From: Lacibacter sp. H375
GTDB taxonomy: Bacteria > Bacteroidota > Bacteroidia > Chitinophagales > Chitinophagaceae
Direction: 5' to 3'
NCBI RefSeq assembly: GCF_037892425.1
Contig: NZ_JBBKTT010000001.1
Coordinates: 2,790,001 to 2,854,000, forward strand
Length of the DNA: 64,000 nt
Shown: positions 31,115-43,489 of the stretch, piece by piece
How positions within the stretch are numbered: position 1 is the first letter of the stretch
How the letters are laid out: every line of letters begins with the position of its first letter
Position numbers and translations under genes: made by a program
The notes under the pieces: model-generated
Seen by the model: only the letters and a program-made list of their open reading frames with translations
Told to the model about the DNA's origin: nothing
The model's database searches: none

Positions 31115-31549
31115 ATGAAAATTATGAAACAAAGTATCCTGTTGCTTTTAGTGGCTGTATCGTTTACAGCCTGTACAAAAGGGTTTTATATTGATGGGAA
31201 AAAAGCACAAGCGGTAACGATTACTGATATGGGCGAAATGTATTCAACTTATAATTTATCGCAGGCAGAGAAAACAGAAGTTAGCCGCCAGTTAAATGAT
31301 AAATCGCTTCTTGATGGTATTATACGATATACAAAAGAAGGTACATGGCCAGATGCTGTTAACACGTTGGACGACAGGTTGGCAAATCGTAAAACGATGG
31401 AGCGTTATAATTTTTACAAAGTGGCTTCTTTCGGAAACAAAACTATTGTGAGCGCACCGGCCGAAAAAAATCAACACATGCCGGCGGCTTATATTCCGCA
31501 AGGGCCGATGTATATTATTTTTTCAAGCTCTGTTGTAGCGAGTAAATAA
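31115..31549 (+). CDS. Hypothetical lipoprotein
   Basis: 144 residues; ATG at 31124 is an alternative start. Lipobox leader ILLLLVAVSFTACTKG (Cys about residue 21). The rest is short and mixed alpha/beta with a basic middle; no family recognised. Followed by a good intrinsic terminator and convergent with the small-RNA-like units. Confidence 0.75.
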   Translation: MKIMKQSILLLLVAVSFTACTKGFYIDGKKAQAVTITDMGEMYSTYNLSQAEKTEVSRQLNDKSLLDGIIRYTKEGTWPDAVNTLDDRLANRKTMERYNFYKVASFGNKTIVSAPAEKNQHMPAAYIPQGPMYIIFSSSVVASK

Positions 31550-31612: not shown

Positions 31613-31687
31613 CAAAAAAAATATCCCCACCTGGAAAGGAGGGGATATGGCTAATCAGTTACCATTAACCATTAAACCTTATCATCA
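31613..31687 (-). ncRNA. Candidate small RNA unit, copy 2
   Basis: Read on the minus strand: a 38-nt core (31687-31650) identical to copy 1, then a hairpin with ATATCCCC/GGGGATAT arms (31641-31648, 31621-31628) and inner CCT/AGG pairs, ending in eight T (31620-31613). An AT-rich AAAATATTC box lies 15-25 bases upstream, as in copy 1. The core holds two tiny overlapping frames, one reading MVNGN after an AAGG. No minus-strand gene follows, so it is not a leader. Transcription is inferred. Confidence 0.5.
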
Positions 31688-31784
31688 CACAAATAGACTG
31701 AATATTTTTTTTAAGAGTTGCATGGTTGTGTCATAATTCAGTAAGGAGCAGCAAAAACCGTTGGAGTTTATTTTTTGAAGGCAT

Positions 31785-31852
31785 AAAAAAACCTCTTCCG
31801 GTAAAGGAAGAGGCGCTAATCAGTTACCATTAACCATTAAACCTTATCATCA
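31785..31852 (-). ncRNA. Candidate small RNA unit, copy 1
   Basis: Minus strand: the same 38-nt core (31852-31815), then a hairpin CCTCTTCC/GGAAGAGG (31806-31813, 31792-31799) and seven T (31791-31785). The hairpin arms differ from copy 2 in sequence, yet shape and T-tract are kept, so the structure appears selected. It starts 46 bases after the thioredoxin-like stop (31898), with an AAAAAAATATTC box between. Could be a separate small transcript or a second 3' end of the thioredoxin mRNA. Confidence 0.5.
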
Positions 31853-31897
31853 ATGGCAAAATAGAATATTTTTTTGAATTATTGTTGAAACGTTAAA

Positions 31898-32431
31898 TTA
31901 TTTCCAGCTCGGTTTAAAATTTTTAGCATAGTCATCAAAGCTCACCTGGCCATACTTTCGCTCAGCAAAATACCTGGCCACCAGTTCCATTTCTTTTACC
32001 TCTAACATACCGGAAATAGGCTGAGGATCATCGTTTAACGAGGGAATGATCACAGTTGTGGGATAAGCTAACTCGCCATTCGTCAGCATTAAAGCAACCT
32101 CATTGGTTTTATAAGACGGGTTAAACTTATAGGTATTACCTTTCCATTTTACTTCCGACCTGGTTTCAGCATTTAATTTTACCGTATAAAAATTTGTGTT
32201 GAGGTATTTAATGAGGTCCTGGCTCGTGTACGTTTTGCGGTCCATCACCTTGCACCAGCCACACCAATCGGTATAAAGATCAATGAGGATAGGGCGGGGT
32301 TCGGTTTTCATTTTAAGTTCAGCTTCTTCCAGTGATATCCAATTCATTTTTTCTTTTGCATTCTTTTGCTGAAAAGAACTGATGCTGATGAACAGAAAGA
32401 AGAGGGCGGAGTAAAAACAAAACTTTTGCAT
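31898..32431 (-). CDS. Periplasmic thioredoxin-family protein
   Basis: 177 residues with a signal peptide (FYSALFFLFISISSFQQ). Thioredoxin fold with the active site DWCGWCKVMDRKTY, a DsbD-gamma/DUF255-like CGWC form. YTVKLNAETRSEVKW and YPTTVIIPSLND (cis-Pro region) complete the domain. Likely reduces or isomerises disulfides in the periplasm. Divergent from the UbiX-like gene. Confidence 0.9.
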   Translation of the reverse strand: MQKFCFYSALFFLFISISSFQQKNAKEKMNWISLEEAELKMKTEPRPILIDLYTDWCGWCKVMDRKTYTSQDLIKYLNTNFYTVKLNAETRSEVKWKGNTYKFNPSYKTNEVALMLTNGELAYPTTVIIPSLNDDPQPISGMLEVKEMELVARYFAERKYGQVSFDDYAKNFKPSWK

Positions 32432-32469: not shown

Positions 32470-33045
32470 GTGCATAAAATTGTTATTTCTGTTACCGGCG
32501 CCAGTGGATCGATCTATGCGAAACTCTTATTGCAGAAGCTTTTGGCAGCCAAAGATCAGTGGCAGGAAGTGGCAGTTGTTATGACAGAGAATGCAAAAGA
32601 AGTGTGGCGCACTGAATTGCAGGATAAGGAGTATGAAAATCTGCCTTTCAAAATTTATTCAACAACCGATTTTACTGCTCCATTTGCATCGGGCTCAGGG
32701 CAGTTCAACACAATGATCATTATTCCCTGTAGCATGGGTACGCTCGGCCGCATTGCAACAGGTGTATCAAATGATTTGATTACACGTGCTGCTGATGTGG
32801 TGTTGAAAGAAAGAAGAAAACTGATCTGCGTTGTAAGAGACACCCCTTACAATCTTATTCATATCCGCAATATGGAAACGGTTACGCTGGCCGGTGGAAT
32901 TATTTGTCCGGCTACTCCAAGTTTTTACAGCGTGCCGAAAACAATTGAAGAAGTTGCAGCAACTGTTGTTGATCGTGTGCTTGATTTAGCAGGGATTGAT
33001 GTGAAGACGTTTCGCTGGGGGAAGAGAGAAATGAAAGATGAGTGA
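32470..33045 (+). CDS. ubiX: UbiX family flavin prenyltransferase
   Basis: 191 residues. N-terminal KIVISVTGASGSIYAKLLLQ binds FMN phosphate; later FASGSGQFNTMIIIPCSMGTLGRIATG, the ERRKLICVVRDTPYN loop and GGIICPATPSFYS are diagnostic. UbiX makes the prenylated FMN cofactor for UbiD-type decarboxylases; no ubiD gene is in the window. Length is normal. The last codons lie in a heptamer array. Confidence 0.93.
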   Translation: MHKIVISVTGASGSIYAKLLLQKLLAAKDQWQEVAVVMTENAKEVWRTELQDKEYENLPFKIYSTTDFTAPFASGSGQFNTMIIIPCSMGTLGRIATGVSNDLITRAADVVLKERRKLICVVRDTPYNLIHIRNMETVTLAGGIICPATPSFYSVPKTIEEVAATVVDRVLDLAGIDVKTFRWGKREMKDE

Positions 33046-40456: not shown

Positions 40457-43400
40457 ATGAAACGAAACTTAAAAAAGCAAAAAAGCAGATGGGTTCAAGT
40501 GCCCTTATTTCTGCTCTTGTTAATGCTCTGTTCAATGGTACAGGCACAAGTAACAATTTCCGGTAAGGTAACCGCTTCGGGTAATGCAGCAGCATCCAAC
40601 GTCTCGGTAGTGGTGCGTAATACAAATTTTGGTACATCAACCGATGCAACCGGAGCGTATAGTTTTTCTGCTACTCTGAAACCGGGTAAGTATGTATTGG
40701 AGTTCTCAGGTGTTGGATATAAAACAGCAACAAAAAATATATCCATTGAAAGTGGCACAAACAGTTACACAAGCGATATTGAGTTAGAGGATGACGTATT
40801 AGGTCTTGATGAAGTTGTTGTAACAGGTACAGGTGTTGCCACTAAGAAAAAACAATTGGGTAATGCTATTGCAACAGTATCGGGCAGAGAGTTAACAAGA
40901 GGTGGCGCAACATCTATTGATATGGGTTTGCAGGGAAAAGTTGCAGGTGCACAGGTTACACAAAACAGTGGAAACCCTGCCGGTGGTATTACTGTTCGTT
41001 TACGTGGACCAAGTACCATTGTTGGTTCTTCTGATCCTTTATATATTGTTGATGGAGTCATTGTCAATAACGATTCCCGGCAGTTGATCGATCTTGGTGG
41101 TTATGCACAAAACAGGTTGGTTGATATTAACCCTGCTGATATCGATCGTATTGAAATTATTAAAGGTGCAGCTGCAGCAGCTATCTATGGTTCAAGAGCT
41201 AATAACGGTGTAGTACAGATATTTACAAAGAAAGGTCGTGAAGGCAAACCCCAATTCAGTTTCTCTACACAGTTGCGCAGCAGTTCACTCCGTAAAAAAA
41301 TGGAGTATAATCAGGTGCCATTCCGTTTTACAAATTTTGTAGCAAGCGATCTTACTACCGTTCCTGTACAGCGTTATGATTTCCAGGATAAAATTTTTCA
41401 AAATGCTATTGGCACAGAGAATGTGTTGTCAGTTTCGGGAGGCACTGTTAATACAAAATATTATGCGTCGGTTTCAAACCTTTATAACGAAGGCATTGTA
41501 CGCAATACCAATTTTATGCGGAATGGTTTTCGTTTAAACCTTCAGCAAAAGCTGAATAAAACAATGACGCTTAATTTCAATACTGCTTATACATACAGCA
41601 CCAGTAAGGAAATTCCCAATGGTGGTATCAATGAAGCATATGGTGCTTTGACCGGTTTTATTTTTGGCAATAACTATGTTAATCCGGATAAAGATCCTGC
41701 AACGGGTATTTATCCATCTGTAAATGCAACAGCTATTGTTGCACGTACAAACCCATTGGAAGCAATTGAGCGTTTCGATTTCCGCCAAAAGACAAGCCGT
41801 ATTGTATCAAGTGCACAGTTAACCATTAAGCCGGTTACAGGATTGAATATTGAGTTTACTTCAGGGATCGATAACTACACGCAAACAGCAACTGCCTATA
41901 TTCCTCCACGTAATACAACGCCTTCTTATAACGGTGGTTTTATACGTCGTGCAGATGCGACTGTTATGCAGTTGAATAATGATCTTACAGCTACCTATCA
42001 AAAAGAAATTGCAAATGAACTGCAGTCAACAACATCATTGGGTGGAACACTACAATACGATCGTACGTTGACTTTTTCTGCAAATGCAACACAGTTGGGT
42101 GCATTTGGTCAAACCATTAACAACGGAACCATTGCTGCTGGTGAGTTTAGAGGCGAGCGTGTAATTATGGGTGCTTTCCTGCAACAAACATTTGGATTTA
42201 AAAACAGATACTTTGTTACAGGCGCAGCACGTGTTGATGCATCGTCTGTGTATGGCATTGATAACCGTTGGCAGTTCTTCCCCAAAGTGAGCGGAACATA
42301 TATTGTATCAAATGAAAAATTCTGGACTGATGGTCTGGCAAAAGCAGTAAGCAGTTTAAAACTGCGTGCAGCATATGGACAGAGTGGTAACTTAACTGCC
42401 ATTGGTCAATACGACCGTTTTACAAATTTCTCACCAGTAGTTTATGGCGGGCAGGCTGGCTATATTGCCCCATCTACATTGGGTAATTTCACAGTGAAAC
42501 CAGAACGCCAAACGGAAGTTGAAGTTGGTTTCGACCTTGGCTTGTTAAATGATGCCATCAGTGTTGAATTCAGCTATTTCAATAAAGATGTAAAAGATCT
42601 TATTCTCAACCGCACACTTGCTCCAACAACTGGTTATAACAATCGCTTTGTAAACATTGGTACCATGACCAACAAAGGATTTGAATTCCTTGTTCGTGCA
42701 GTTATTCTTAATAAGAATAAGTTGCGCTGGGTATCAAGCTTGTCTTATCTCAATAATAAGAATGTAGTAAATGGTGTGGAAGGTAACGGCGTATTGCCGT
42801 TTGCCGGTGGCTTTGGACAGGTTGCCGCAGTGAATGGTTATCCGTTAGGTGCATATTACAGTACCTTCTTTGCACGAAATCCTGATGGAACTTTGCTGCG
42901 TGATTTGAATGGATTGCCACAACGTGAAAGAGGAATACAATTGGCTAATGGTAACTACACAGTTCAACGTGGTGCAAATGGTCAACCAACCGGTACATTG
43001 CTGAGTAAGGTAATTGGTCAGCCAAATCCTAAACATGTCATTTCTAAAATTGACGAACTCGATTTCGGCAAATTTAATTTCCGTATGCAGTGGGATGCAA
43101 TGTTGGGTTATGATGTATTCAACTTTACCAAGCGTGTAGGTGATCGTGATTTTTATGGCGGATTGAAAGGATACGAACCTGAGTTGCGTGGAGAAGTACC
43201 TAAAGGTACAAGCGCTGCTCTCTTCAGCATTTTTGAAAACTGGATCGAAGATGGATCGTTTGTAAAGCTTCGTGAAGTATCAGTAGCTTATAATATGAAG
43301 CCGAAGTTTTTAAAAGGCAACAGTATGCGTTTGAGTGTAATTGGACGTAACCTGCTTTCATTTGATAAATACAGCGGATGGGATCCGGAAGTAAATGCTG

Positions 43401-43489
43401 CAGGACAGGATAATGCGGTGCGTGGTTTCGATTTTGTGGAAGTACCGATCCCAAGAATGATCATGTTTGCAGTAAACATTAATTTCTAA
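40457..43489 (+). CDS. SusC/RagA TonB-linked outer-membrane protein
   Basis: 1010 residues from ATG 40457. Signal peptide ends near SMVQAQ. A carboxypeptidase-D-like domain (about 30-110) precedes the TonB box and plug: LDEVVVTGTGVATKKKQLGN, LRGPSTIVGSSDPLYIVDGV, ADIDRIEIIKGAAAAAIYGS. The barrel follows, ending IPRMIMFAVNINF with a terminal Phe. With SusD it imports an oligosaccharide or peptide across the outer membrane; ligand unknown. No glycosidase genes adjoin, so this is not a complete polysaccharide-utilisation locus. Confidence 0.95.
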   Translation: MKRNLKKQKSRWVQVPLFLLLLMLCSMVQAQVTISGKVTASGNAAASNVSVVVRNTNFGTSTDATGAYSFSATLKPGKYVLEFSGVGYKTATKNISIESGTNSYTSDIELEDDVLGLDEVVVTGTGVATKKKQLGNAIATVSGRELTRGGATSIDMGLQGKVAGAQVTQNSGNPAGGITVRLRGPSTIVGSSDPLYIVDGVIVNNDSRQLIDLGGYAQNRLVDINPADIDRIEIIKGAAAAAIYGSRANNGVVQIFTKKGREGKPQFSFSTQLRSSSLRKKMEYNQVPFRFTNFVASDLTTVPVQRYDFQDKIFQNAIGTENVLSVSGGTVNTKYYASVSNLYNEGIVRNTNFMRNGFRLNLQQKLNKTMTLNFNTAYTYSTSKEIPNGGINEAYGALTGFIFGNNYVNPDKDPATGIYPSVNATAIVARTNPLEAIERFDFRQKTSRIVSSAQLTIKPVTGLNIEFTSGIDNYTQTATAYIPPRNTTPSYNGGFIRRADATVMQLNNDLTATYQKEIANELQSTTSLGGTLQYDRTLTFSANATQLGAFGQTINNGTIAAGEFRGERVIMGAFLQQTFGFKNRYFVTGAARVDASSVYGIDNRWQFFPKVSGTYIVSNEKFWTDGLAKAVSSLKLRAAYGQSGNLTAIGQYDRFTNFSPVVYGGQAGYIAPSTLGNFTVKPERQTEVEVGFDLGLLNDAISVEFSYFNKDVKDLILNRTLAPTTGYNNRFVNIGTMTNKGFEFLVRAVILNKNKLRWVSSLSYLNNKNVVNGVEGNGVLPFAGGFGQVAAVNGYPLGAYYSTFFARNPDGTLLRDLNGLPQRERGIQLANGNYTVQRGANGQPTGTLLSKVIGQPNPKHVISKIDELDFGKFNFRMQWDAMLGYDVFNFTKRVGDRDFYGGLKGYEPELRGEVPKGTSAALFSIFENWIEDGSFVKLREVSVAYNMKPKFLKGNSMRLSVIGRNLLSFDKYSGWDPEVNAAGQDNAVRGFDFVEVPIPRMIMFAVNINF

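Follow-up and report, generated by a model that had tools for sequence, protein, structure and literature searches.

Two short units in tandem on the minus strand, identical over a core of 38 nt and followed by hairpins of unrelated sequence, raise the question of what kind of element has been doubled at this locus of Lacibacter sp. H375. We think it likely that they are tandem trans-acting small RNAs of about 75 nt, forming part of a Chitinophagaceae sister branch of FopS/GibS, which would block the initiation of translation of their target genes. At the level of sequence, this reading is supported by a family of related units, a seed-terminator layout, a shared neighbourhood, an excess of matching sites before the starts of own genes and sites of 16 to 23 nt in other genera.

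Two tandem units with an identical core

The window is the whole stretch of 64,000 nt that was analysed. On its minus strand, the 38-nt core TGATGATAAGGTTTAATGGTTAATGGTAACTGATTAGC occurs in identical form at 31852-31815 and 31687-31650, as the initial annotation had reported. Copy 1 continues into a stem (CCTCTTCC/GGAAGAGG, 31813-31792) followed by 7 T, and copy 2 into a stem (ATATCCCC/GGGGATAT, 31648-31621) with an 8-T tract (counted from the last base of the stem). The stem arms of the two copies are unrelated in sequence, while stem and T-run are kept, which bears out the earlier observation of completely different arms in a preserved arrangement. The terminator hairpin is part of the predicted fold of both units (z -4.9 and -2.6). 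With up to 3 mismatches, a 33-mer of the core has two occurrences in the window, both the known copies, and none in 100 shuffles; Rfam at gathering scores gave no match on the window. The features of the locus are:

31785..31858, minus strand: putative sRNA copy 1, core plus terminator, about 70-75 nt, with extent and 5' end taken from the family layout
31815..31852, minus strand: core (predicted seed) of copy 1, 38 nt, from sequence, family scan and shuffle control
31785..31813, minus strand: terminator hairpin and 7-T run of copy 1, from sequence and predicted fold
31614..31690, minus strand: putative sRNA copy 2, core plus terminator, extent likewise taken from the layout
31650..31687, minus strand: core (predicted seed) of copy 2, 38 nt, from sequence, family scan and shuffle control
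31614..31648, minus strand: terminator hairpin and T tract of copy 2, from sequence and predicted fold
31898..32431, minus strand: gene of a thioredoxin-like protein, one of two recurrent upstream neighbours of the family
32470..33045, plus strand: gene of a PF02441 flavoprotein, which we take to be UbiX-like, the other recurrent upstream neighbour

The seed of copy 2 and those of two relatives are mostly open in predicted folds. For copy 1, a partly folded seed is predicted if the RNA starts at 31858 (-11.7 kcal/mol), with GCCATTGAT pairing to its own core, and this self-pairing may weaken or tune copy 1.

The A-rich box noted initially, AAAATATTC, is indeed present at both window copies, but it is absent from the pair in L. 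cauensis (L132) and thus looks like ordinary A-rich upstream DNA. The ORF after the units (31115-31549) lies on the plus strand, in line with the earlier statement that no minus-strand gene follows and that neither unit is a leader. It is small and lipoprotein-like, with a match to PF08941 (USP8_interact) of 39.3 bits, over the cut-off; the name of that family points to eukaryotic proteins.

A family of fixed cores and variable terminators

The possibility, raised with the initial annotation, that the core occurs nowhere else was dispelled by a scan of Chitinophagaceae: at 3 mismatches or fewer, the 33-nt core was found in 87 of 294 genomes and 34 of 101 genera, and the reversed pattern in none. 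All 6 Lacibacter genomes sampled hold a pair of core matches, and other positive genomes hold 1 to 6. An exact 22-mer scan of named genomes returned at least 119 stretches, with Niastella, Terrimonas, Puia, Flavihumibacter, Niabella, Longitalea and Lacibacter among the matches listed. Conservation within the 22-mer is partly due to selection by the scan itself; in the mismatch-tolerant 33-nt scan, the matches listed are nearly unchanged in the first 22 nt too. Judged by its sequence, the core is a genuine RNA family. Over 247 genomes of the phylum there were 12 matches outside Chitinophagaceae against 16 of the reversed pattern, and those fetched did not have the sRNA layout. A locus in a genome of another family (L184:1500-1560) is an array of TGGATAATGGTTAATGG-type repeats, which looks like a simple repeat and not an sRNA. 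Genomes are called core-negative here when no 33-mer match is found at 3 mismatches, a class in which G022, G027 and G034 are known to hold diverged copies. The count of 112 of 294 family genomes obtained with model R1 is an upper bound, since R1 scores antisense target sites as well; its match in G065 may be such a site.

The family consensus reads TTTTCATAG-GATAAGGTTTAATGGTTAATGG-TNTT-TGATTAG-hairpin-T-run. The core is followed by a T-run and a hairpin of 4 or more G-C pairs in 147 of 160 instances, which take in a few near-matches that are not sRNAs, compared with 16 of 400 random stretches. RNAalifold found no pairs on alignment A1 because the hairpins do not align, and the conservation of the terminator therefore rests on these counts. 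In L002, L003 and L004, from another genus, there are also two copies, at a distance of about 270-290 nt, and their spacers before TGATTAG differ in length. At L046:2942-3048 and L182, the core has no clear terminator and is accompanied by a degenerate second copy, which may point to an sRNA array in decay.

CATAG precedes the core in 113 of 134 chromosomal copies. An exact TAnnTTTG box, the pattern of the sigmaABfr-type promoter that belongs to the traits of FopS, lies within 30 nt upstream in 49 of the 134, in 46 of them at one distance (control 1.35%). Lacibacter departs from this arrangement: the CATAGG part is replaced, the exact TAnnTTTG box is not present at the window copies, and the unit is doubled. 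As the upstream regions of the two Lacibacter copies differ, the doubling may raise the dose or give two differently controlled copies. Among 158 instances, the upstream proteins form one cluster of 45 with a UbiX-like representative and one of 43 with a thioredoxin-like representative, and such recurrent neighbours suggest one old locus with later extra copies. The downstream ORF is convergent in 120 of these instances and codirectional in 25, while 13 gave no such ORF. With 120 of the 145 ORFs found being convergent, a role as leader is unlikely.

Antisense sites before start codons of the own genome

What the core could act on was read from a sample of the own genome (60 stretches, 1.2 of 5.08 Mb). 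The start region was defined as the 45 nt that precede the first ATG of an ORF, and 892 ORFs of 100 aa or more were covered. Ranking behind the promoter word TATCTTTGC, the most over-represented 9-mers in these start regions are all antisense to the core: CATTAAACC (10 observed, 0.41 expected), ATTAAACCT (11 and 0.61) and TTAAACCTT (11 and 0.89). At 65-110 nt upstream the same words, in this order, occur 1, 0 and 0 times, inside genes not at all, and downstream 0, 1 and 1 times. Perfect antisense to the core reaches at least 9 nt in 22 and at least 10 nt in 17 of the 892 start regions, and no shuffled seed attained either value in 400 dinucleotide and 400 mononucleotide shuffles. The longest site in the own genome measures 19 nt, and one of the 17 genes with at least 10 nt encodes a SusC protein. 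With a 36-nt version of the core, matches of 9 nt or more precede 24 of 900 genes, and 19 of these matches begin 11-31 nt before the ATG.

Some of the sites are clustered. L308 carries them before a DUF3455 lipoprotein gene (19 nt), a methyltransferase gene (10 nt) and the gene of a secreted 151-aa protein (13 nt); in L315 there are four within 8 kb, one at a hemerythrin-domain gene (15 nt); and L304 has two sites of 13 nt each, one at a PspC-domain gene and the other at a DUF4440 gene. Starts resembling signal peptides were found by a crude predictor in 16 of the 24 site-bearing genes and in 317 of the 876 others (p 0.004). Ribosomal RNA gave no comparable target: in the stretch that holds the own rRNA operon, antisense to the core extends over 8 nt at most. 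As the core matches the sequence before the starts of many own genes, the sRNAs probably tune those genes.

In a genome-wide energy scan of 1401 start windows, copy 1 reached -24 kcal/mol or lower in 24, the reversed seed in 6 and three shuffles in 14, 8 and 3, which is only modestly above the controls. The case for targets draws its strength from the long perfect matches and not from energies. Two core-like matches, L061:238-290 and L176:1490-1513, have their other strand just before an ATG (of a 369-aa ORF in L061) and may themselves be target sites.

The own genome has 47 SusC matches above the cut-off. One of these genes, at G000:C1:3575923, carries AAACCTTATCATTC-ATG and has a predicted pairing with copy 1 of -26.5 kcal/mol. 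Its site is kept in two of three Lacibacter orthologues (G292, and G213, whose leader is otherwise diverged) and altered in G083. Taken as a class, the 47 start regions are predicted to pair weakly better with the seed than with shuffled ones: z is -1.8 and -2.4 for copy 1 (two runs), -1.3 for copy 2 and -2.8 for the family-consensus seed (0 of 60 shuffles); shifted windows gave weaker values. A SusC/RagA-family gene of the window itself (40553-43486, plus strand, located by conversion of genome coordinates) has its start region among those 47.

The initial annotation had left the choice between an sRNA and a micropeptide. The terminators found in 147 of 160 instances support the former half, and the latter fared poorly. 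A tiny mRNA that encodes MVNGx or MVFD appears highly improbable to us, even though 140 of 148 copies keep the 5-codon frame MVNGx intact and another frame, of 4 codons, is common: those 148 copies were chosen by a 22-mer that encodes most of the MVNGx frame, its last position can hold I, F, N, T, L, Y or V, and among the copies with a changed core (L172-L174, L177-L179, L181, L188) the frame is broken in 7 of 8 and kept in L178. Besides, complementarity to start regions accounts for the same conserved bases without a peptide.

Sites in other genomes

The antisense sites could have a meaning of their own if the start element CATTAAACCTT were a general signal of translation or of leaders, which the core resembles in complement for another reason. 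The element recurs in the own genome, as such a signal would, and the pattern CCATTAAACCTT-N6-15-ATG is also present in core-negative genomes. Leaving sRNA genes aside, 60 of its matches fall in the 87 genomes with the core and 39 in the other 207, compared with 10 and 29 for the reversed pattern (Fisher p 2.8e-4), so that core-bearing genomes take a larger share of the matches than they do of those to the reversed pattern. For this tally, we took out by hand 34 matches that are sRNA genes, recognised from their place or from the CCTTATCCTAT signature, and merged two duplicates that overlapped; the reversed pattern was likewise counted by hand per genome group, and many of the matches have no long ORF after them (30 loci read). 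A further point for a general signal is a 23-nt site in G065, which has no 33-mer core match at 3 mismatches or fewer. Against it, start regions with at least 10 nt of antisense show no excess in two core-free genomes, G070 of the same family (0 of 269) and G615 of another family (0 of 291), and the sites extend over 19-23 nt along the seed. Altogether, we regard a general start signal as very unlikely and a seed that pairs with its targets as the better account of these sites.

The core-bearing G272 has no general excess of antisense sites per start region, with at least 9 nt in 4 and at least 10 nt in 2 of 308, numbers equalled by 82 and 50 of 400 shuffles. It does hold one site of about 21-22 nt ahead of a lipoprotein gene that resembles PAP2/haloperoxidase (with Pfam PAP2 under its cut-off), and its k-mer totals look strong because one 21-nt site yields many overlapping words. 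In G263, an 18-nt site precedes a haloperoxidase-like gene, 60% identical to the own L308:12152, and in G158 a 16-nt site precedes a methyltransferase gene, 51% identical to the own L308:13500. A secreted 202-aa protein common to three genomes of one genus has a 17-nt site. Among sister species, the hemerythrin site is kept in G160 and absent in two of the three, G083 and G213; for the DUF3455 gene, no homologue was found in the 3 sister genomes searched.

Relationship to FopS, GibS and GcvB

According to the FopS report, this sRNA combines a single-stranded 5' stretch with a terminator, has 14 copies in B. thetaiotaomicron, is conserved within Bacteroidaceae, is tied to gut glycan use and was seen in a phage; it represses SusC translation and is bound and opposed by RbpB (PMC11697453). 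The Chitinophagaceae family shares with it a C-poor 5' seed (predicted to be mostly open, except in copy 1), a Rho-independent terminator, several copies per genome (two in each of the 6 Lacibacter genomes, up to 6 matches elsewhere) and phage copies. FopS directs its seed at start-codon regions, those of SusC genes included; for the Chitinophagaceae seed such pairing is a prediction, with one SusC gene among the 17 start regions and a weak signal from SusC genes as a class. The 70% consensus of the FopS seed R1' given there is GTGTTTTTCATAGTATTAGATTTAAGGTTAACAAA (PMC11697453). Compared by eye with the Chitinophagaceae consensus, TTTTTCATAG is common to both and is followed by 15 of 18 matching bases with one extra base. 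However, the window copies lack TTTTTCATAG and the first ten bases of R1', and the second repeat TTAATGG and the TGATTAG box of the Chitinophagaceae family are absent from R1'.

The Rfam model of FopS (RF04319, gathering score 56 bits) matches in 12 of 20 relatives' loci at 26.6-36.4 bits (E 0.098-7.7), exactly on the sRNA and nowhere else in 59.7 kb, with 8 loci remaining without a match. On the window there was none even at E<=10, and the cut-off, reached in 7 of 8 FopS-type viral loci, was never reached by the relatives' copies (maximum 36.4). Each of these sequence matches is weak alone, but their placement taken together is hard to explain by chance. Antisense 10-mers before own-genome starts number 50 for the own seed (2.9 expected) and 7 for the FopS seed (3.8 expected). 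On the basis of sequence we call the Chitinophagaceae family a sister family of FopS, and not a member. The literature search found no report of this family outside Bacteroides. Of the suggestion of an undescribed sRNA family, the fixed core and the variable terminators stand, whereas the novelty is reduced by a layout and much of a seed that match the described FopS.

GibS (RF04182) has a long, open seed at its 5' end, which base-pairs across start codons (PMC7366714). The likeness lies in this open 5' seed aimed at start codons, which is a prediction for Chitinophagaceae. GibS differs from the units of about 75 nt described here in its length of 145 nt, its middle hairpins and its second seed, R2. 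The model RF04182 had no match on the window or on the 20 relatives' loci. GcvB-type multi-target sRNAs of enterobacteria also direct a C-poor open seed toward many start regions and are Hfq-dependent; they belong to another phylum and are likened here by their way of working alone.

In a different reading, the core, by its spaced GG motifs, would act as a decoy that sequesters an RNA-binding (e.g. RRM) protein, with pairing as a secondary matter. GG motifs recur every 6-8 nt along the core, five RRM_1 proteins are encoded in the own genome, and FopS is bound by RbpB (PMC11697453). Antisense sites before start codons, with lengths of up to 19-23 nt, are not expected of a decoy, and we hold such a role to be very unlikely next to a pairing seed.

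Copies on viral contigs

In IMG/VR, the core is present on 13 viral contigs in 14 instances (the second end of one contig is left out of the count). Five of the 14 have a tRNA gene upstream on the same strand:

L153:9784-9880: tRNA-linked viral core
L154:9618-9715: tRNA-linked viral core
L156:1571-1680: tRNA-linked viral core
L172:1169-1321: tRNA-linked viral core
L173:5129-5240: tRNA-linked viral core

AGGATAAGG starts at the base right after a tRNA predicted by ARAGORN in two instances, L153 (Leu) and the second L154 copy (Trp). It lies one base further on in L156 and L172, where the Rfam tRNA matches exceed the cut-off at 34.3 and 30.6 bits, though they are long and marginal, and 13 nt separate it from the tRNA in L173 (Ala). 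The sequence upstream in L159 and L174 is tRNA-like by eye and counts as a candidate only. No tRNA was found within 1.5 kb of any of the 158 non-viral instances among 170 (duplicates kept, some loci short). FopS-type seeds occur on 25 viral stretches, of which L201 and L219 seem tRNA-linked by eye, yet have no tRNA match upstream. Two stand-alone viral copies (L152:11000-11340, L154:700-990) lie beside a small helix-turn-helix gene on the opposite strand, and the two small proteins are related. GenBank phages and plasmids yielded no convincing copy, the best phage matches being by eye without hairpin and T-run.

From these arrangements we tentatively propose, at somewhat less than an even chance, that phages carry the host's seed sRNA and that some of them mature the seed RNA plus terminator from a tRNA via tRNA 3' processing. 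If so, a phage with a tRNA-matured seed would need no separate promoter to act on the host regulon. The presence of copies on 13 viral contigs, and of several per genome, would also fit an inert mobile or recombination element, such as a phage attachment sequence, with a terminator that it carries by chance. We judge this extremely improbable given a neighbourhood fixed in many genera, a promoter box at fixed distance in 46 of 134 copies and terminators that vary in sequence but keep their form.

Proposed mechanism and implications

In the mechanism that we favour, each unit would supply a C-poor 5' seed (GATGATAAGGTTTAATGGTTAATGG...) with its own terminator, and the seed would pair just before the target's start codon with 5'-...CCATTAACCATTAAACCTTATC...-AUG-3' or parts of it. 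Most likely as in FopS, pairing over the landing zone of the ribosome would keep ribosomes off and block initiation. The predicted targets include many secreted proteins or lipoproteins and at least one SusC transporter. We infer that the units are transcribed and pair in the cell, with repression rather than activation as the outcome, and that an RRM protein may have a part in it.

A relative of FopS at a locus shared by many Chitinophagaceae, with a seed that matches a recurrent element of start regions, suggests that start-directed sRNAs built of a seed plus terminator are an older and wider layer of regulation in Bacteroidota. In this context, the tRNA-linked copies on viral contigs point to a way in which phages may exploit the same regulon, and the antisense sites offer a concrete list of predicted targets in organisms with little sRNA knowledge.
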